A model generated the notes under the pieces. That model was not told the DNA's origin, searched no databases, and saw only the letters and a list, made by a program, of their open reading frames with translations. Positions 51,552 to 59,340 of a stretch of 64,000 bases of DNA are shown one piece after another. This DNA is from Lentzea tibetensis (GTDB lineage: Bacteria; Actinomycetota; Actinomycetes; Mycobacteriales; Pseudonocardiaceae): assembly GCF_007845675.1 (NCBI RefSeq), contig NZ_VOBR01000024.1, positions 1-64,000 on the forward strand, written 5' to 3'. The number at the start of each line of letters is the position of its first letter. Position 1 is the stretch's first letter. The position numbers were made by a program, and so were the translations under genes.

Positions 51552-51684
51552 CGGTGCCACCGTGGACGACAACTGCGTCGAGGTGGCGTTCTCCGAGGCT
51601 GTGCGCGTGCGTGACTCGAAGAACACCACCGGTCCCACCCTGACCTTCTCGCCGGAAGCGTGGCGGGAGTTCGTCAGCCGCTGA
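51517..51684 (+). CDS. DUF397 family protein
   Basis: A 55-residue protein with the DUF397 signature: SWRKSSYSGATVDDNCVEVAF, a central VRVRDSKN and an end [14 protein letters not shown]. The ATG at 51517 lies inside the XRE gene in another frame, ensuring coupled translation. DUF397 proteins are the usual partners of DUF5753 regulators and may counteract them. Its 3' end overlaps the ADP-ribosylglycohydrolase gene on the other strand by 11 bp. Confidence 0.9.
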   Translation: MLQDSWRKSSYSGATVDDNCVEVAFSEAVRVRDSKNTTGPTLTFSPEAWREFVSR

Positions 51685-52618
51685 GCGCCTCAAGGCCTTC
51701 TTTGCCCAGCCGTTCGATCACTTCGCGGAGCTCCAGCGGCTCCAGCCAGTGCGAAGGAATGGCGCCGGCGCCGTCGCGCGCGCCGAGGATGTTTCCGCAG
51801 ATGGCACCGGTCGAGTCGCTGTCGCCGGAGTGGTTGACCGCGAGGAGCAGTCCGTCGGCCAGGTTGTCCGCGTGGATCGCGCACAGCAGTGAGATCGCGA
51901 GCGCCTCCTCGCCGACCCAGCCGCCGCCCAGCTCGGACTCGATCAGCTCGGGCGTGGGCCGTCCGAGGCCGGCGACCTTGTCGAGCAGTGCCGTCTGCTC
52001 CTCGTGTCCCTGGTGGCCGACCAGGATCTGGCGGGCGAGTCCGGTGGCCGTGACGACGTCCGCGCCGCGCAGCACCTGGTGCACGATCACCGCGAGCACG
52101 CCCGCCGACAGGTAGCCGCTCGGGTGGCCGTGCGTGAGCCGAGCGCACCCGGCCGCGAGCGCGAACACCTCGGCCGGGTCGTCCGACCAGAGCGCGCACG
52201 GCGCGACCCTCATCACGCCGCCGCAGCCCTTGGAGTTGTTGTTGGCGTCCTTGCGCAGCGCCGTGAGGCACGTGTTGCCGGGCGCGCGCAGCGAGTGCAA
52301 CTCCGGGACGTCGATGAGCCAGCCGTCGTGGGTGGTCTCCGGGCCCTGTTGCGTCTGCAGCCAGCGACCGTAGGCGGCGCGGACGGTGAGCATGGGATCG
52401 ATTCCGTTGCGGCGGGCCAAGATCAGACCCTCCAGGGTGAACAACGTCATCTGGGTGTCGTCGGTGATCGAGCCGAGGCCGTCGAAGGCGGGTGCGTAGT
52501 CGGTGAGTCCGGACGGGCCGTAGCGGGCCCGGATGTCACCGATCCGGTTGAACTCGATGGGTGCTCCGAGCGCGTCGCCGACCGCGCCCGCGAGCAGCGA
52601 TCCGAGAAAGTTCTCCAC
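51674..52618 (-). CDS. ADP-ribosylglycohydrolase family protein (DraG-like)
   Basis: A 314-residue hydrolase expected to remove ADP-ribose from a protein, nucleic acid or small molecule. It has the family hallmarks: [17 protein letters not shown], the metal-site [35 protein letters not shown], and the second metal site [22 protein letters not shown]. All Asp ligands are present. The GTG at 52618 starts directly at the fold; upstream in-frame sequence is antisense to the divergent gene. Its target is unknown; no ADP-ribosyltransferase was recognised in the window. Confidence 0.92.
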
Positions 52619-52624
52619 GGAAGT

Positions 52625-52630
52625 TATGGT
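52625..52630 (+). promoter_or_regulatory. -10 box of the Cds1-like gene (leaderless type)
   Basis: TATGGT is followed by 6 nt and the GTG start. Only 18 bp separate this start from the divergent ADP-ribosylglycohydrolase start, so upstream promoter parts must lie inside that gene. Confidence 0.5.
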
Positions 52631-52636
52631 GCCCGC

Positions 52637-53725
52637 GTGAGTACTTCCGTGGACCGCAGTTGCAGCAGAACGCGTCACTGGGTGTGCGAGGCCGTCAAGA
52701 TCATCGAGGCGGACGCGAACCGGAGCGCGGACACCCACCTGCTGCGGTTCCCGCTGCCGCCGGACTGGGGCATCGACCTCTACCTGAAGGACGAGTCGAC
52801 GCACCCGACCGGTTCGCTGAAGCACCGGCTGGCGCGCTCGCTGTTCCTGTACTCGATCTGCAACGGCTGGGTCGCCGGTGGCACGCCCGTGATCGAGGCG
52901 TCGTCGGGTTCGACGGCCGTGTCCGAGGCGTACTTCGCGCGGCTGCTCGGGTTGCCGTTCATCGCGGTGATGCCGCGTTCGACGAGCGAGGAGAAGGTCG
53001 CGCTGATCGAGCGCGAGGGCGGCCGATGTCACTTCGTCGACTCGCCGAGCGCGATCTACGACGAGTCGCGGCGGCTGGCGTCCGAGCTGGGCGGCCACTT
53101 CATGGACCAGTTCACGCACGCCGAGCGCGCGACGGACTGGCGCGGCAACAACAACATCGCCGAGTCCATTTTCGACCAGATGAAGCTGGAGGCGTCGCCC
53201 GAGCCGGACTGGGTCGTGGTCGGCGCGGGCACCGGCGGCACGTCGGCGACCATCGGCCGCTACATCCACTACCGCAAGCTCAACACGCGCCTGGCCGTCG
53301 TCGACCCGGAACACTCGGTGTTCTTCGACGCCTGGAACAACTCGGACCCGTCCCTCATCGGCGCGCGGGGTTCACGCATCGAGGGCATCGGCCGCCCGCG
53401 CGTGGAGCCGTCGTTCGTCGGCCAGGTCATCGACCGGATGATCAAGGTGCCGGACGCGGCGTCGATCGCGACCATTCGTTTCGTCGAGACGTTGCTGGGT
53501 CGCCGGGTGGGCGGGTCGACCGGCACGAACCTGTGGGGCGCGTTCCAGATCATCTCGGAGATGCGCCTGTCCCGGACGCGCGGCAGCGTCGTGACGCTGC
53601 TGTGCGACGGCGGTGAGCGTTATGCGCACACCTACTACGACGACGCCTGGGTCACCGGTCAGGGCATGGACCTGACGCCTTTCCTGGGCAAGCTCCAGGA
53701 TTTCCATTCGACGGGTAAGTGGTAG
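52637..53725 (+). CDS. PLP-dependent cysteine synthase family protein, Cds1-like L-cysteine desulfhydrase
   Basis: A 362-residue fold-type II PLP enzyme. The PLP lysine is in [15 protein letters not shown], the substrate loop is [20 protein letters not shown], and the phosphate-binding loop is [39 protein letters not shown] and [12 protein letters not shown] match what I remember of the M. tuberculosis cysteine desulfhydrase Cds1 (Rv3684), which makes H2S, pyruvate and ammonia. The GTG at 52637 gives a start [21 protein letters not shown]. It may supply or detoxify sulfur compounds. Confidence 0.9.
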
Positions 53726-53795
53726 GCCGGAACCGTACGCTGGCGAGCTGCGTCACAGCGTGGAATCAAGCAGCTCAATCGAGGGGGACGGCGTC

Positions 53796-54101
53796 GTGTC
53801 CTTGCTGTACACCGACCCCGCCGAGCTGCGCGGGTACGCCGAGTACCTGCGCACCGAGGCGGGCGAGTTCGAGACCATCCGCGGCTACGTGCGGGACACG
53901 GCGTGCGACAAGAGCGGGTTCACCGGTCTCCTGACGCTGCTGCAGCCGGGTGTCGACCTCGTGCGCGCGCTGTTCGACGAGACCCTCGACTTCGGCAAGT
54001 CCAAGTTGGAGGGTGCCGCGTCGGCGATCGACGCCACCGCCGACGACTACGACAAGATCGAGCAGGCGCACAAGAAGATGTTCGAGGGGATCCTGCGATG
54101 A
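53796..54101 (+). CDS. EspC/WXG100-like small protein with YxxxE secretion signal
   Basis: A 101-residue helical protein. It begins VSLLYTDPAELRGYAEYLRTEAGEF, has a turn SGF in the centre, where WXG proteins have WxG, and ends with ATADDYDKIEQAHKKMF, giving Tyr85-x3-Glu89, the general type VII secretion signal YxxxD/E. This is the pattern of EspC-type or WXG100 partners of larger effectors. The GTG at 53796 has GAGGGGGA 7 nt upstream. It overlaps the effector gene by 4 bp, so the two proteins are probably made in equal amounts and secreted as a pair. First gene of a six-gene operon. Confidence 0.82.
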   Translation: MSLLYTDPAELRGYAEYLRTEAGEFETIRGYVRDTACDKSGFTGLLTLLQPGVDLVRALFDETLDFGKSKLEGAASAIDATADDYDKIEQAHKKMFEGILR

Positions 54102-57064
54102 GCACGGGTTTCGCGGACCCCCGTCCGATCGCAGACGCACTGCAGCCCCCGGAGATCGACAAGGCGTCGCTGAACGACGTCCTCGAGGACTGCGGCTGGG
54201 AGCTCCAGGCCGTCAACTGGATCTTCGAACAGGTGACCGGCAACAGCCTCGTCGCGACGATCATCACCCCGATCACCGGCGACTGGTCGAAGATCCGCGC
54301 GGACGGCGACGCGTGGCGCAACGTCGGCACCGCCATGAACGACATGTCGTACAACCTGACCCACAACGTCGCTCAGCTGCGCGACAGCTGGGACGGCGAG
54401 GCGGCCAAGGCCCACGAGCGCTACATCGCGCTGGGCTGGAAGGCGGGCCTCCTGGCGGAGATGGGCATCGCCCACGTCATCGCCAAGGGCTTCGACACCG
54501 TCGCCGAGGGCGCCGAGGCCCTGGGCAAGCAGGCCGCTCGCCTGCTGGACTACCTGGTCAAGAAGCTCGTCCAGGCCGCAGCGACCGTGTGGATCCCGGT
54601 CGCGGGCTGGGTCAAGGCCGCCGAGATGGTCTGGAACGCGTACCAGATCTACCAGCGCGTCATGGACATCATCGAGACCATCCAGAAGCTGATCACCGAC
54701 GTGAAGGCCCTCTTCGACGCCGTCGGCAACATCGCTTCCGCTCTCGGCAAGCTGAAGGACGCCGACAGCCTGGCCGAGGCCATGAACGCGACCCAGGAGG
54801 TCGCCGAGGGCGTCCGCGACGTTCGCAACTCGGTCAACGACATCAAGGACGGCGTCCAGTCCGTCAAGGACAGCGCGACCGAGATTCGCGACCGCGGCCA
54901 GGACATCCACAGCTCCGCCCGCGACTACCAGAAGCCCTCTGGCGGCTCTGACGCCACCGGCACCTCTGCCGTGACCTCGCAGAGCGGTCCCGCCGTGTCC
55001 GCTCCGCCTTCGATGCACAGCTCCGACGGCACGCCTTCTTCTTCTGGTCCGGCCCCGTCCGGCGGCCCGGCCCACACCCCGCCCCCCGTGCACGGCTCCG
55101 GCGGCCCGTCCTCGTCGGCCCCGGCTCCGTCCGGCGGCCCGACGCACACGCCGCCTCCGGCGAACCGCGGCGACACGACGCACGCCCAGACGTCGACCCC
55201 CGTGGCCCAGCACCCGACCCCGGCTGGCCCGGCGCCCACGCCGACCGCGTCCCACACGCCGACGCCGACCGCGGGCCCCCAGCACGCTCCTCAGCACGCC
55301 CAGACTCCTCAGCAGCACGCGCCGACGCCTCGGCCGGGCGACTCGACGGGCACCTCGGCCACCGCGCCGCCCCGCACGCCGACCGCGACCCCGCACACGC
55401 CGGGCTCGACCCCGCACGCCCCAAGCTCGCCGAGCTCCACGCCGCACGCGCCGGGTTCGCAGGGCTCGGCTCCGCACACCCCCGGCTCACAGGGCTCGGC
55501 TCCGCACGCGCCGTCCTCCGGCTCCACGCCGACTTCATCGGCGCACACCGGCACCACGCCAGGCTCGCAGGGCTCAACCCCGCACACTCCTGGCTCGCAG
55601 GGCTCGACCCCGCACTCGCCGACGGGTGGCTCAACCCCGCACTCGCCGACGACCGGTACGTCGCCGGGCGCGCCGGGCACGACCCCGCACACTCCTGGCT
55701 CGCAGGGCTCGACCCCACACTCCCCGACCTCGGGCTCCACGCCGGGCTCGCCGACGGGTGGCTCGACGCCGCACGCGCCGGGTTCGACTCCTGGTTCGCA
55801 GGGCACGACGCCGCATTCCCCAACCACCGGCACCACTCCGGGTGCGCAGGGTTCAACCCCGCACACCCCTGGTTCCCAGGGCACCACGCCGCACTCCTCG
55901 ACGACCGGCTCCACGCCGGGCTCGCCGACCGGCACGACGCCCCACACGCCAGGCACCACGCCGCATGCGCCGGGCACGACCCCGCACGCGCCGGAGAGCG
56001 GCTCAACCCCGCACGCGCCGGGCACCACGCCCCACGCACCCGGCACAACGCCGCACACCCCAGGCACCCACGAGTCGACCCCGTCCCACCCGGACGCGAC
56101 CCACGAGTCCACGAAGCCGGACCACCCGACGAAGCCGGACACCGACTCAACCCCGTCGAGCGGCACCGACACCCACGACACCCCGCACGACACCCCGCAC
56201 GACACGAAGCCCCACGACACCCCGGCCCACCCGGACACCCCGGCCACCGGCGACCACCACGACCCGAGCACCCCGAGCAGCCCAACGGGAGACCACGGCG
56301 GCGACACCCCGCCCCCAGCCGAGCACCACACGGGCGGACACGACGATGAAAAGGGCCAGTTCGACAACCAGGCCATGCGCGACGGCGGTCCGAACTACCA
56401 CGAGCAGCTGAACGACCTCATCCCGAACGAGGCCGAGCGTCGTGAGTACGAGGAGATGACGCGCAGGCCGTCGCACGAGCTGACGGAGGACCAGGCGCGC
56501 CGGATCGTGGACGTCCGCAGCCAGATGACAGCTGACGACGGCTCGGTCATGACGAAGGCGCTGCGGCCGGAGGACGTCGACAAGTACTTCAAGGGCGAGT
56601 ACGCGGCGGACAGCGTCCGCGGGTTCGTCGCCCGCGGCCAGGACGTCGCGCCGATCAACACGCCGTCCGGGCTGCACGACGGGCTCGCGCTCGACGACTC
56701 GCCGACCCGTGCGAAGGGCGAGCAGGGCTGGTCCCCGATCCCGGACCGCAACCAGGACTCCGCGATCCAGCTGCGGTGGGCCGTGCAGCCCGACGCCGGC
56801 CGGATGCCGGTCGCGTTCGGCGCGCAGTGGGGTCAGGACGGGACGGCCGACATGATGCGCAACGTCACCGGCAGCGATCCGGTGCGCGGCGACGCGCCGT
56901 ACACGGGCACCGGGCACACCGGTGGCGGTGTGCCGGAGTGGCGGGCGAACGGTGAGAACATGGGTGACCGCGCCGAGATGTGGCGGGTCAACAAGGATGG
57001 CTCCGAAGAGATGTTCGCCTACTACACGCGGGACAACGGGTCGTGGAAGCCGGTCGGATCGTGA
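54098..57064 (+). CDS. Large type VII-secreted polymorphic toxin-like effector
   Basis: A 988-residue protein in three parts. The head (about 1-275) is helical, with LRDSWDGEAAKAHERY (WxG at 98-100), a hydrophobic helix around AAATVWIPVAGWVKAAEMVW and a coiled-coil stretch. The linker (about 280-750) is Pro/Thr/Ser/Gly/His, built of units such as TPHTPGSQGS and TPHAPGT, then DTPHDTPHDT. The C-terminal domain (about 750-988) contains SVRGFVARGQDV (842-853), IQLRWAV, PYTGTGHTGG and AEMWRV (959-964). I do not recognise this domain; it is not the TNT NADase. The head-linker-tail build, with a small gene directly downstream, is that of a polymorphic toxin. Confidence 0.8.
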   Translation: MSTGFADPRPIADALQPPEIDKASLNDVLEDCGWELQAVNWIFEQVTGNSLVATIITPITGDWSKIRADGDAWRNVGTAMNDMSYNLTHNVAQLRDSWDGEAAKAHERYIALGWKAGLLAEMGIAHVIAKGFDTVAEGAEALGKQAARLLDYLVKKLVQAAATVWIPVAGWVKAAEMVWNAYQIYQRVMDIIETIQKLITDVKALFDAVGNIASALGKLKDADSLAEAMNATQEVAEGVRDVRNSVNDIKDGVQSVKDSATEIRDRGQDIHSSARDYQKPSGGSDATGTSAVTSQSGPAVSAPPSMHSSDGTPSSSGPAPSGGPAHTPPPVHGSGGPSSSAPAPSGGPTHTPPPANRGDTTHAQTSTPVAQHPTPAGPAPTPTASHTPTPTAGPQHAPQHAQTPQQHAPTPRPGDSTGTSATAPPRTPTATPHTPGSTPHAPSSPSSTPHAPGSQGSAPHTPGSQGSAPHAPSSGSTPTSSAHTGTTPGSQGSTPHTPGSQGSTPHSPTGGSTPHSPTTGTSPGAPGTTPHTPGSQGSTPHSPTSGSTPGSPTGGSTPHAPGSTPGSQGTTPHSPTTGTTPGAQGSTPHTPGSQGTTPHSSTTGSTPGSPTGTTPHTPGTTPHAPGTTPHAPESGSTPHAPGTTPHAPGTTPHTPGTHESTPSHPDATHESTKPDHPTKPDTDSTPSSGTDTHDTPHDTPHDTKPHDTPAHPDTPATGDHHDPSTPSSPTGDHGGDTPPPAEHHTGGHDDEKGQFDNQAMRDGGPNYHEQLNDLIPNEAERREYEEMTRRPSHELTEDQARRIVDVRSQMTADDGSVMTKALRPEDVDKYFKGEYAADSVRGFVARGQDVAPINTPSGLHDGLALDDSPTRAKGEQGWSPIPDRNQDSAIQLRWAVQPDAGRMPVAFGAQWGQDGTADMMRNVTGSDPVRGDAPYTGTGHTGGGVPEWRANGENMGDRAEMWRVNKDGSEEMFAYYTRDNGSWKPVGS

Positions 57065-57435
57065 TCCCCGAGCACAACGGCCGGCAGGTCGCCGTCTACC
57101 AGGGCAAGCTCTACGAGGTGCTGAACTCGCGCCTCGGCAAGGGGCTCGTCCGGCTCAGCCCCGGCGACGACCACGTCAGCCCGGAGCAGCTGGAGTCCTG
57201 GTACGTCGACCGGGCCGTGTTCACCTGGCGCGGTGAGCCGTTCGACGCCGTGAAGATCGAGGGCGGCCGGGTCACCGGCAGCCACACGGGGCTGGATCTG
57301 AGCAAGGGCAAGGAGCTCGGCCTCGACGGGGACCAGTACAGCGGTTTCGGCGGCACGTTCCCACTCGACGAGGTCGACCTGAAGGTCGAGCGCACCGATC
57401 TACTGGCGCGCTGGAAGGAGAAGCACGCGGGATGA
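57061..57435 (+). CDS. Probable immunity protein of the effector
   Basis: A 124-residue soluble protein starting VIPEHNGRQVAVYQGKLYEVL, with RAVFTWRGEPFDAVKIEGG, LGLDGDQYSGFGG and an end of DLLARWKEKHAG. The family is unknown to me. Immunity function is inferred from its position (GTG overlapping the toxin stop by 4 bp), small size, lack of a signal peptide, and because a homologous domain is fused to a toxin-tail homologue in the next gene (YQG, TWRGxxF and LGL-Y positions align). It overlaps that gene by 4 bp. Confidence 0.6.
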   Translation: MIPEHNGRQVAVYQGKLYEVLNSRLGKGLVRLSPGDDHVSPEQLESWYVDRAVFTWRGEPFDAVKIEGGRVTGSHTGLDLSKGKELGLDGDQYSGFGGTFPLDEVDLKVERTDLLARWKEKHAG

Positions 57436-58418
57436 GCACCCCAGAAGCCACCGACGTGCGCAAGCCGGCCGGTATCGGGCCGCAGACGATCGTGCAAAAG
57501 ATCGTCCACCCGGCGCTGGCCGCGCTGTACCTGGGCAACGTGACCGTGCCGGCGCGCTTCGAGGCGCACCGGGCGGGCGGGTTCGTCACCAGGGGGCAGG
57601 ACTTCCCGGAGGGCACCGCGGACGCGTTCACGGAGGCGTTCGGCGTCGACAAGGTGCCGGGCTGGCCCAAGGGCACCCAGTACCTGCTGCGGTTCTACGC
57701 GCACACCACCACGCTCTTCACGACGACGTTCGGCGGCCGGACGCTCGACAGCGCGCACAAGATGGGCACGAGCACGGTCTACCCGGCGCCCTTCCTCGGC
57801 ACCGGGTACACGCCGAGCAGCAACCCGATCCCCGAGTACTTCATGGAGCTCACCGAGCTCCCCAGCGGCGCGGAGCTGTGGCGCGTCGAGCCGAGCGGCG
57901 AGGCGAAGAGCGTCGGGTTCTACGTGCACCGGCAGATCGGCTGGGTGCCGACGGACGACGTCGCGTTCGGCCCGAGCCGCTTCTGGCCCGCGCCCGCGAC
58001 GTTGCGCATGACCGTCCGACGTGGACTGATCGCGCGCTACCAGGGGCGCGACTTCGACGCGGACTTCGCCAACCGGCCGGGCGAGCTGGTGCTGCACCCG
58101 CTGCCTGGTCAGCAGGCGCCGCAGGACTTCGCTGAGAAGGACGGGGCGCGCTTCCTGCAGGTCCCCGACGTCGCGGTCGACGAGATCGCGGTGCTGCGCA
58201 AGCGTTGCACGTGGCGCGGCGCCGAGTTCGAGCTGCTCGACGTCAGCGGTGACCACGCGGTGCTCAACTTCCTCGGCGAGAACTACGAGGTCGCGGCGCA
58301 GCTCGGGCTGACCGAGGTCGACTACCGCCAGTGGCGCACCGTCGCGCCGCGCGCGGAGCTGACCGACGTCAGAGACGAGACGCGTGCACTGCCGCGTGGA
58401 CTCTTCAGCGCCAACTGA
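57432..58418 (+). CDS. Fusion of toxin-tail-like and immunity-like domains
   Basis: A 328-residue protein without signal peptide or WXG head. Residues about 40-185 align with the end of the effector: GGFVTRGQD (49-57) with RGFVARGQD, YLLRFYA with IQLRWAV, FLGTGYT with PYTGTGHT, AELWRVEPSG with AEMWRVNKDG, and QIGWVP with NGSWKP. Residues about 195-315 align with the putative immunity protein: ARYQGRDF with AVYQGKLY, CTWRGAEF with FTWRGEPF, AQLGLTEVDY with KELGLDGDQY. It may be an antitoxin that mimics the toxin, an inactive decoy or a resident toxin-immunity chimera. The alignment is by eye. Confidence 0.65.
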   Translation: MSTPEATDVRKPAGIGPQTIVQKIVHPALAALYLGNVTVPARFEAHRAGGFVTRGQDFPEGTADAFTEAFGVDKVPGWPKGTQYLLRFYAHTTTLFTTTFGGRTLDSAHKMGTSTVYPAPFLGTGYTPSSNPIPEYFMELTELPSGAELWRVEPSGEAKSVGFYVHRQIGWVPTDDVAFGPSRFWPAPATLRMTVRRGLIARYQGRDFDADFANRPGELVLHPLPGQQAPQDFAEKDGARFLQVPDVAVDEIAVLRKRCTWRGAEFELLDVSGDHAVLNFLGENYEVAAQLGLTEVDYRQWRTVAPRAELTDVRDETRALPRGLFSAN

Positions 58419-58433
58419 TCTGGAAGTGAAGCG

Positions 58434-58877
58434 ATGAGCACCCCGAACGACAGCTGGAAGTCCCCGGAACTGCGTGCCGCCGAGGCGCAGGTCGACGCGA
58501 GACTGGGCGAGGCCCAGCAGTTGGCCGCCCGCCTGCAGTCGCAGCAGCTGCCGCCGCTCCCGCCGCTCGACACGGCCGCGATCGCGGAGCAGGTCGAGCG
58601 GGCCGCCAGTGAGCGCGACGCGCCGGCCGAGCTGAAGGCGTTGAAGCGCAAGGTCGACGCGGGCGACTTCAGCTGGGACGACGTCGTGGGCGGCCGGGCG
58701 GCGGCCGACCCGGACGTGCAGCAGATGCAGCAGGCGAACATGGCCAAGATGCGCCAGGCGTTCCAGATGCTGTCCGAGGGCATGACCGCGGACGAGATCA
58801 TGGACGCCCAGCGCAGGCCGCGCGGTGGCGACGACGATGACGAAGGGCCGTCGGACTTCCGGGAAGACGCGTGGTGA
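58434..58877 (+). CDS. EDAW-tail protein 1, helical, T7SS island
   Basis: A 147-residue soluble, mostly helical protein. The first 70 residues are Gln/Ala/Leu-rich (LGEAQQLAARLQSQQLPPLPPL). The core has LKRKVDAGDFSWDDVVGGRAAADPDV, and the C-terminus is acidic and ends SDFREDAW. The core and tail are shared with the next gene product, including identical spacing from SW to DP. I know no function; adaptor, chaperone or secretion partner of the effector is inference from the operon. ATG at 58434 with a GAAGTGAAG-type RBS. Confidence 0.7.
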   Translation: MSTPNDSWKSPELRAAEAQVDARLGEAQQLAARLQSQQLPPLPPLDTAAIAEQVERAASERDAPAELKALKRKVDAGDFSWDDVVGGRAAADPDVQQMQQANMAKMRQAFQMLSEGMTADEIMDAQRRPRGGDDDDEGPSDFREDAW

Positions 58878-59266
58878 CCTGGCGGACCGCGGACGTGCTG
58901 GCGGCCGAGGACGGCCTCACCGCCGCCGTCGCGTCCGTCGAGAAGGCGATGCGCGAGGCCGCCCAGCTGCGCGGCCGCGAACCGTCCACAGAGGACATAC
59001 GGCGCGTCGTGCAGTTCGCCAAGTCCACCGAGGCGTCGAACGCGATGCGGTCGCTGGCCGACCGCATCGCGCGCGGTGGCCTCAGCTGGCGCCAGGTGCT
59101 CACCGGCGAGGCGTCGCACGACCCGTTGGTGCGCAAGGCGCTGGAGGAGAACCGCTCCCGGCTCGACGAGCTGATCCATGGTGAGCCGGTGCGACCGCCG
59201 CAGCCGCGCAAACCGCTCCGGCGGGACGACGACGAGCCGCAGTCGTTCACCGAAGACGCGTGGTGA
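58874..59266 (+). CDS. EDAW-tail protein 2, paralogue of the preceding gene product
   Basis: A 130-residue soluble helical protein with VTWRTADVLAAEDGLTAAV at the start, the shared core LADRIARGGLSWRQVLTGEASHDPLV and a tail DDDEPQSFTEDAW. It is clearly a diverged duplicate of the preceding protein. The GTG at 58874 overlaps the preceding stop by 4 bp, so both are made together. A long hairpin 25 bp downstream ends the operon. Function unknown. Confidence 0.7.
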   Translation: MTWRTADVLAAEDGLTAAVASVEKAMREAAQLRGREPSTEDIRRVVQFAKSTEASNAMRSLADRIARGGLSWRQVLTGEASHDPLVRKALEENRSRLDELIHGEPVRPPQPRKPLRRDDDEPQSFTEDAW

Positions 59267-59291: not shown

Positions 59292-59340
59292 CGTTAGGGG
59301 CACCCTTGGGACACTTGGCGTCGCAAGGGTGCCCCTAACG
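59292..59340. terminator. Bidirectional terminator, 17-bp perfect stem
   Basis: The arm CGTTAGGGGCACCCTTG (59292-59308) is perfectly complementary to 59324-59340, loop of 15 nt. It closes the toxin island and the convergent lipoprotein gene. Confidence 0.8.

Follow-up and report, generated by a model that had tools for sequence, protein, structure and literature searches.

We have identified the six genes g1 to g6, at positions 53796-59266 of a 64,000-nucleotide stretch of Lentzea tibetensis DNA (hereafter the window; positions 1-64000 of contig C27 in a genome of 9.36 Mb and 105 contigs), as very probably an actinobacterial type VII secretion (ESX) polymorphic-toxin locus. In this locus a fixed chassis appears to carry an exchangeable payload, with the C-terminal tail of the g2 effector as the predicted toxin and the g3 product as its predicted immunity protein. 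We assign these two roles because the payload is swapped for a TNT domain in a close relative, because a g3-family match stands behind 55 of 61 unfused tails, and because a locus in the Bacillota holds an array of g3-family genes. An earlier note, made from the letters of the window alone, had proposed a type VII secretion system (T7SS) polymorphic toxin with a new effector tail, and that proposal is supported by the TNT replacement, the downstream g3 family, the co-divergence of tail and g3, and an ESX locus in the same genome. The six-gene island that it described stands as a single operon, but not as an indivisible unit, as its genes seem to divide into a chassis (g1, the g2 head, g5 and g6) and a payload (the g2 tail, full-length g3 and g4). 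The features of the locus are as follows.

53796-54101, + strand: g1, 101 amino acids from a GTG start, an EspC-like small T7SS substrate or partner; chassis.
54098-57064, + strand: g2, the whole effector of 988 amino acids, made up of head, linker and tail.
54098-54922, + strand: g2 head, residues 1-275, a helical WXG-type T7SS targeting domain; chassis.
54938-56347, + strand: g2 linker, residues 281-750, 470 amino acids of low complexity, mostly P, T, S, G, H and A.
56348-57064, + strand: g2 tail, residues 751-988, a predicted new toxin domain with conserved R846, D849, D866, E947 and W983.
57061-57435, + strand: g3, 124 amino acids, the predicted cognate immunity protein.
57432-58418, + strand: g4, a tail-like half joined to a g3-like half.
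57432-58013, + strand: N-terminal half of g4, a second copy of the tail domain without a T7SS head.
58014-58418, + strand: C-terminal half of g4, a second copy of the g3 (immunity-like) domain.
58434-58877, + strand: g5, 147 amino acids with an acidic C-terminus ending in EDAW; chassis accessory.
58874-59266, + strand: g6, a paralogue of g5, also ending in EDAW; chassis accessory.
59292-59340, + strand: 17-bp stem-loop that closes the operon, terminator-like, without a T-run.

The replacement of the payload can be followed within the genus Lentzea itself. The g2 head is present in all 25 Lentzea genomes searched, and the tail and g4 are present in 24 of them; the exception, G193, has a TNT domain. 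Its locus (L255) contains the head closest to that of the window among the searched Lentzea (about 83-84% identity), together with the upstream ADP-ribosylglycohydrolase (85%), the upstream pyridoxal phosphate (PLP)-enzyme gene (90%), g1 (89%), g5 (78%), and g6 (76%). At the DNA level, L255 matches window positions 51688-54923 (86%) and 58431-59266 (80%), and the intervening positions 54924-58430 find no match in it (blastn E 1e-10, same strand). The L255 effector ends in a TNT domain (PF14021, 105.7 bits) and is followed by an 87-amino-acid gene that is 36% identical to a gene beside TNT in locus L190; it has neither a full-length g3 nor a g4 behind it. Between the 87-amino-acid gene and g5 lies an 82-amino-acid open reading frame (ORF; L255 6738-6986, - strand), which overlaps the start of g5 by 4 bp and resembles the second half of g3 (E 4e-7 against the g3 profile; a 53-residue alignment with g3 of L108 at 33%, E 8e-7 within this stretch). 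This ORF may be a remnant, or a short immunity gene kept against sister strains. Despite its presence, the comparison of the two loci leads us to regard the tail, full g3 and g4 as the predicted payload and g1, the head, g5 and g6 as the predicted chassis.

A second genus, g45, shows the same exchange. A head related to that of g2 occurs in 16 of 16 genomes, with 14 loci at 81-100% identity, while the two remaining genomes reach at best 60% and 33%. Nine of these 14 loci carry the window's tail family (L098, L099, L256-L260, L264, L266) and five carry TNT (L190, L261-L263, L265; Pfam 123-125 bits), so that different C-terminal toxins are found on the same head both in Lentzea (24 versus 1) and in g45 (9 versus 5). 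By gene calls, eight of the nine tail loci have the order effector, g3-like gene, orphan tail, g3-like gene; in the ninth, L260, the second tail was located by a six-frame search. In each TNT locus of g45 the effector is followed by a gene like the 83-amino-acid gene of L190, and neither of our two g3 profiles, the full one or one made from the C-terminal halves of g4-type proteins only, matches in any of the five. We refer to these small genes as IFT-like on the basis of their place beside TNT and their mutual similarity, not of a comparison with IFT itself. Among heads at 60-69% identity, that of L267 bears a Toxin-deaminase domain (PF14424, 53.9 bits versus a cut-off of 29.6) and that of L270 a sub-threshold YwqJ-deaminase (24.4 versus 25.9). 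In genus g19, L092 and L192 have the tail on a head that resembles the heads of TNT effectors, and L090, L091 and L189 each hold TNT and the tail in one cluster.

Farther afield, the tail was found in 5 of 396 genomes sampled from the phylum, the source genome included. In other genomes of the phylum, an effector ending in the tail is followed by one g3-family gene (L284), by two (L283), or by a g4-like fusion (L286). Outside the phylum, Agathobacter rectalis (Bacillota; NZ_CP143948.1) encodes an orphan tail-like protein, WP_012741507.1 (tblastn E 5e-9 in the plasmid collection; E 1.4e-26 against the tail profile in a search of 11 proteins), in a T7SSb locus where four g3-family genes surround it (E 5e-19 to 7e-11, same 11 proteins) and where a WXG100 gene, two Imm59 genes and essC are neighbours. 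Three proteins of this cassette, when scanned in both Pfam and NCBIfam, reached no cut-off. Strings of immunity paralogues are known from T7SSb loci of Staphylococcus aureus: EsaG and TsaI are described as several non-identical paralogues near EssC (PMC9484751). The Agathobacter genes are likened to these strings by arrangement alone, and Lentzea differs from them in having one free g3 and one fused copy.

The case for g3 as the downstream immunity gene, which the earlier note gave as a mark of such toxins, is carried by its position and by its co-divergence with the tail. In a six-frame search of the fetched loci, the 55 matches to the full g3 profile start at most 600 nucleotides downstream of the tail and on the same strand. 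Since the full profile was seeded with genes that stand beside tails, the second profile, which contains no free g3, is important; it finds a match behind 53 of the 61. Gene calls alone place a g3-family gene behind the tail in 47 of 52 cases, the six-frame search having revealed uncalled tails, e.g., in L090, L095, L189, L191, L192 and the second tail of L260. The full profile fails in six cases, namely L286, in which the gene after the tail is a g4-type fusion, and five giant proteins in which the tail lies internally (L093, L094, L095, L193, L194). When 19 Lentzea-type loci are compared, identity in the tail and identity in g3 correlate at 0.98. With head and flank controlled for, the partial correlation with the tail is 0.96 for g3 and 0.77 and 0.83 for the two halves of g4, as against -0.01 for g1, -0.46 for g5 and 0.27 for g6, and the pattern holds when the window is left out. 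Tail and g3 are also the most divergent parts of the locus, with mean identities of 0.73 and 0.66 (22 loci), whereas the head averages 0.91 and the PLP gene 0.94 (19). These figures support exchange of tail and g3 as a block over residue-by-residue co-evolution. A related observation, made by eye, is that a 249-amino-acid protein in L100 (3065-3814) resembles two g3-type domains in tandem.

Several observations weigh against this interpretation and need to be set beside it. The presence of the tail family and g4 in 24 of 25 Lentzea genomes is unusually stable for a polymorphic toxin, and the 82-amino-acid ORF of the TNT-type G193 indicates that g3-like sequence was not completely lost together with the tail. 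The loci were collected by similarity to the tail or to g4, Lentzea orthologues account for 18 of the 55 positives, and the seeding of the full g3 profile beside tails bears on the same count, as do the five giant proteins that have an internal tail and no g3 match behind it. The correlation between tail and g3 mainly reflects four tail types (16, 4, 1 and 1 members); inside the largest of them the partial correlation of tail and g3 is 0.26 (p 0.049) and that of tail and g4 is not significant. Finally, the g4 of the window retains the putative active site of the tail and is therefore not obviously an inactive decoy.

The tail itself has the appearance of an enzyme. All of the 38 effector tails have R846 and E947, D849 and D866 each occur in 37 of the 38, and all four residues are found in 12 of 12 orphan tails, the set being rich in close relatives. 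This invariant R/D/D/E set suggests an active site in a putative enzyme. As the earlier note had anticipated in calling the C-terminal domain unrecognised, the tail has no match above threshold in Pfam, NCBIfam, PADLOC or the sequences of the PDB. More precisely, none of the tail, g3, g4, g5 and g6 scores above a cut-off in Pfam or NCBIfam or is matched in PADLOC at E 1; in PHROGs, which has no cut-offs of its own and against which g2 as a whole was not scanned, the best match is that of the tail at E 0.017; and profile searches of PDB sequences gave best E values of 0.066 for the tail and 0.26 for g3, i.e., chance level. In phage and viral collections no relative was found, the queries being the tail relatives L092 and L289 and not the window's own tail. 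A literature search by words for Lentzea and type VII secretion returned no paper, although a word search cannot find a domain by its sequence. Judged by these searches, tail and g3 are predicted toxin and immunity families that are not represented in the libraries searched. Among individual candidates, a match to Ntox10 (E 0.01), seen in 1 of 18 tail relatives, was dismissed. The giant proteins or frames mentioned above exceed 2200 amino acids in length.

The operon holds the tail and g3 pair of domains twice, once as the tail plus free g3 and once fused in g4. The fusion protein that had been noticed in the window can thus be described as a half that aligns with the g2 tail, followed by a half that aligns with g3. 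Standalone cassettes also occur among the collected loci; the set compared residue by residue contains 12 orphan tails and 29 fused g4-type proteins in addition to the window's own. The loci L082-L088 and L125-L132, mostly from uncultured Pseudonocardiales, hold headless g4-like fusions, and several of these are without the stretch bearing the GxGxT and PE motifs.

What g4 does is the point at which our interpretation meets its best competitor. In the mechanism that we propose, g1 and the WXG head of g2 would form an export unit recognised by an ESX machine encoded elsewhere, with g5 and g6, judging from their co-occurrence, as its accessory proteins. The exported tail would act as a toxin, a role strongly supported by the occurrence of TNT on orthologous heads, and would probably be an enzyme using the R/D/D/E site, whereas g3 would be the producer's immunity protein, for which the sequence evidence is likewise strong. 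Being an orphan toxin-immunity cassette in one polypeptide without an export head, g4 would remain cytoplasmic, and it would most likely be a self-neutralised cassette that provides extra immunity or an inhibitory partner of the tail; this is the least secure step of the scheme. Alternatively, g4 may be a dedicated immunity or antitoxin layer rather than a latent toxin, with neutralisation falling to the g3-like half while the tail-like half binds g3 or the toxin, a possibility to which we give serious weight, a little short of an even chance. Consistent with it, the N-terminal half of g4 is the best conserved part of the payload (mean identity 0.88 versus 0.73 for the tail in 22 loci; ratio of nonsynonymous to synonymous substitution, dN/dS, 0.145 versus 0.308), its C-terminal half diverges with the tail (partial 0.83), and among the 29 other fusions E947 is gapped in six and replaced by a different residue in two more. 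However, the window's g4 keeps all of R/D/D/E, and the co-divergence may be mere linkage; it vanishes inside the largest tail type (partial 0.11, p 0.24). A more far-reaching version, which we put forward tentatively, is that the tail founds a new family of toxin enzymes shared by T7SSs of Actinomycetota and Bacillota, with an R/D/D/E site and a chemistry new among T7SS toxins, and that g4, a fusion that neutralises itself, has been domesticated and is retained by nearly all Lentzea for regulation or as a second layer of immunity and not as a weapon.

As to what the tail might do chemically, it may be an NAD-targeting enzyme, either ADP-ribosyltransferase-like or an NADase, that is functionally equivalent to TNT and either diverged or unrelated in sequence. 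The tail takes the slot of TNT on orthologous heads, and R846 and E947, together with a late GVPEW-like motif, resemble by eye what we take to be the R...E arrangements of ADP-ribosyltransferases. We nevertheless consider this reading doubtful. The tail has no Pfam match to TNT (PF14021) or to PF03496 (ADP-ribosyltransferase exoenzyme, with its R-S-E motif), profile-profile comparison by hhalign gave probabilities of 0.2 and 0.4 for the former and 0.1, against a nine-sequence alignment, for the latter, and the PDB profile searches stayed at chance. Moreover, swapped toxins may differ in mechanism, as the deaminase on a related head illustrates. An ADP-ribosyltransferase-like fold without any likeness in sequence is nevertheless conceivable.

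It is also conceivable, but unlikely, that the effector is aimed at eukaryotes such as amoebae, fungi or nematodes and not at bacteria, with the immunity protein protecting the producer only. TNT, which is found in the tail's place, acts on host cells and yet needs its immunity factor, IFT (PMC8092274). Against this stands the occurrence of the same cassette in a T7SSb locus of a gut Bacillota species with several g3-family genes, an array that recalls the immunity-gene strings of antagonistic T7SSb loci (PMC9484751). The notion that the tail serves a binding or structural purpose after secretion and is not toxic, with g3 as its folding chaperone, would account for the near-fixed payload of Lentzea (24/25), the internal tail copies in giant proteins, and the union of both domains in g4, as in a chaperone-client fusion, but it is very improbable given that TNT replaces the tail on orthologous heads and a deaminase does so on a related one, that g3-family genes form a tandem array beside an orphan tail in Bacillota, and that tail and g3 are the least conserved parts of the locus and diverge together.

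Returning to the locus as a polymorphic-toxin island, its architecture agrees closely with what had been read from the window. The six + strand ORFs lie at the coordinates given for them, and they are joined by 4-bp overlaps at four junctions and separated by a 15-bp gap (58419-58433) between g4 and g5. The proposed terminator stem is present, although no T-run follows it; its fold has a z of -4.17, and equally good folding was obtained in 1 of 200 shuffles. The arrangement is neither scrambled nor absent in all relatives, an outcome that the note had named as contrary to its proposal, as the order g1-g6 is kept behind the same upstream PLP-enzyme gene in 18 of 21 Lentzea-type loci (L101-L120, L122), the remaining three being cut by a contig end so that they begin within the locus. 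The named relatives sharing the arrangement are Lentzea species, apart from one record, L109, labelled Nocardia sp. NRRL S-836. Median dN/dS values of 0.145-0.42 for the operon parts across 14 genomes indicate clear coding constraint. In L073 (G273) the g2 frame is split, so that head plus linker and tail are separate ORFs.

The components of the chassis point to T7SS targeting through motifs and profile comparison. The g1 protein, which had been described as an EspC/WXG-like protein with a YxxxE signal, carries Y-D-K-I-E near its C-terminus; it has no Pfam match itself, but its family aligns by hhalign with a family containing a Pfam-recognised EspC member (probability 97.4, E 1.1e-11), the anchor being the L098 member (PF10824, 29 bits versus a cut-off of 23.5). 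The 988-amino-acid effector likewise has the WXG-type head and the linker of about 470 residues expected of it. Its head holds S-W-D-G, whose W and G do not vary among the 8 heads that were aligned, and it remains below the curated Pfam cut-offs for WXG100 (12.7 versus 27.3 bits) and WXG100_2 (16.9 versus 27 bits). The proteins g5 and g6 are 28% identical and both end in EDAW, in keeping with the paralogous pair noted before. We assign them to the chassis because a g5-like gene also stands beside EspC and head pairs that lack a toxin (head protein 296-305 amino acids; L268, L269, L272, L273). The last three lie in relatives, whereas L268 lies on contig C44 of the source genome and consists of an EspC-like protein, a 296-amino-acid head-only protein and a g5-like protein, i.e., a toxin-less paralogous chassis. 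In Amycolatopsis antarctica (L121) a g5-like gene is located upstream of g1. Proteins like YbaB occupy the first position in similar loci of other genera; YbaB was dropped as an identity for g5 and g6, which have no Pfam match and a pattern that differs by eye. Both g5 (end at 58877) and g6 (59266), as well as unrelated YbaB-like genes (L090, L092, L094, L096), close with an acidic run and then a short tag whose last residue is W (EDAW/EDKW, GSW, RPW, DGW, QSW), which is missing from the YbaB-like genes of L093, L098 and L100. This tag is possibly a docking tag.

For export, the source genome contains a complete ESX locus on contig C37 (EccB, EccCa/Cb, EccD, EccE and mycosin, each above its curated cut-off), in agreement with the earlier suggestion that the machinery is encoded elsewhere. 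The accompanying claim that the window holds no machinery gene stands for EccC and mycosin, for which the own-genome searches gave no match on contig C27, whereas EccA, EccB, EccD, EccE and EspG lay outside the search of the window. Two genes between the machinery genes on C37 look like a substrate pair, with sub-threshold WXG100 scores only, and the second weakly resembles the head of g2 (20%, E 5e-4). We infer that the C37 machine exports g2. A separate CpnT-like locus (L185) is present on contig C24 of the same genome, with a YbaB-like gene, a 104-amino-acid gene, an 832-amino-acid protein comprising WXG100_2 and TNT, and an 88-amino-acid gene.

The locus shares with the WXG/LXG-headed polymorphic toxins, as set out by Zhang et al. 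2012 (PMC3482391), a constant head, an exchangeable C-terminus, an adjacent immunity gene and standalone cassettes. It differs from them in that no model of Pfam or NCBIfam picks up the tail or the immunity family above threshold and in that the orphan cassette has toxin and immunity domains fused in one ORF. With CpnT and its TNT-IFT pair it has in common a WXG-type head, a C-terminal toxin and a small adjacent immunity gene, TNT being in the corresponding place in G193; in contrast, the window's tail does not align with TNT and the payload contains the additional g4. Two things could set this locus beyond the known T7SS polymorphic toxins: what the tail does chemically and what the fused cassette is for. 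The analysis defines, by prediction from genomes, a toxin domain and an immunity family missed by the profile libraries searched, and it documents payload exchange in T7SS loci outside the mycobacteria. Two Lentzea with the same chassis, one with tail, g3 and g4 and the other with TNT, amount to a natural experiment, and as the exchange fixes the boundaries of the modules, the requirements for export and toxicity become separable for testing. The conserved g4 raises the question of why a headless toxin domain stays attached to its own inhibitor.

The ADP-ribosylglycohydrolase gene (51674-52618, - strand; PF03747, 243.8 bits) adjoins the locus. Eighteen of the named Lentzea-type loci cover the region around the PLP gene, and in none of them was a homologue called beside that gene. 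Besides the homologue in G193, others flank both tail-type and TNT-type loci of genus g45, and for this reason the gene was set aside as a pointer to ADP-ribosylation.

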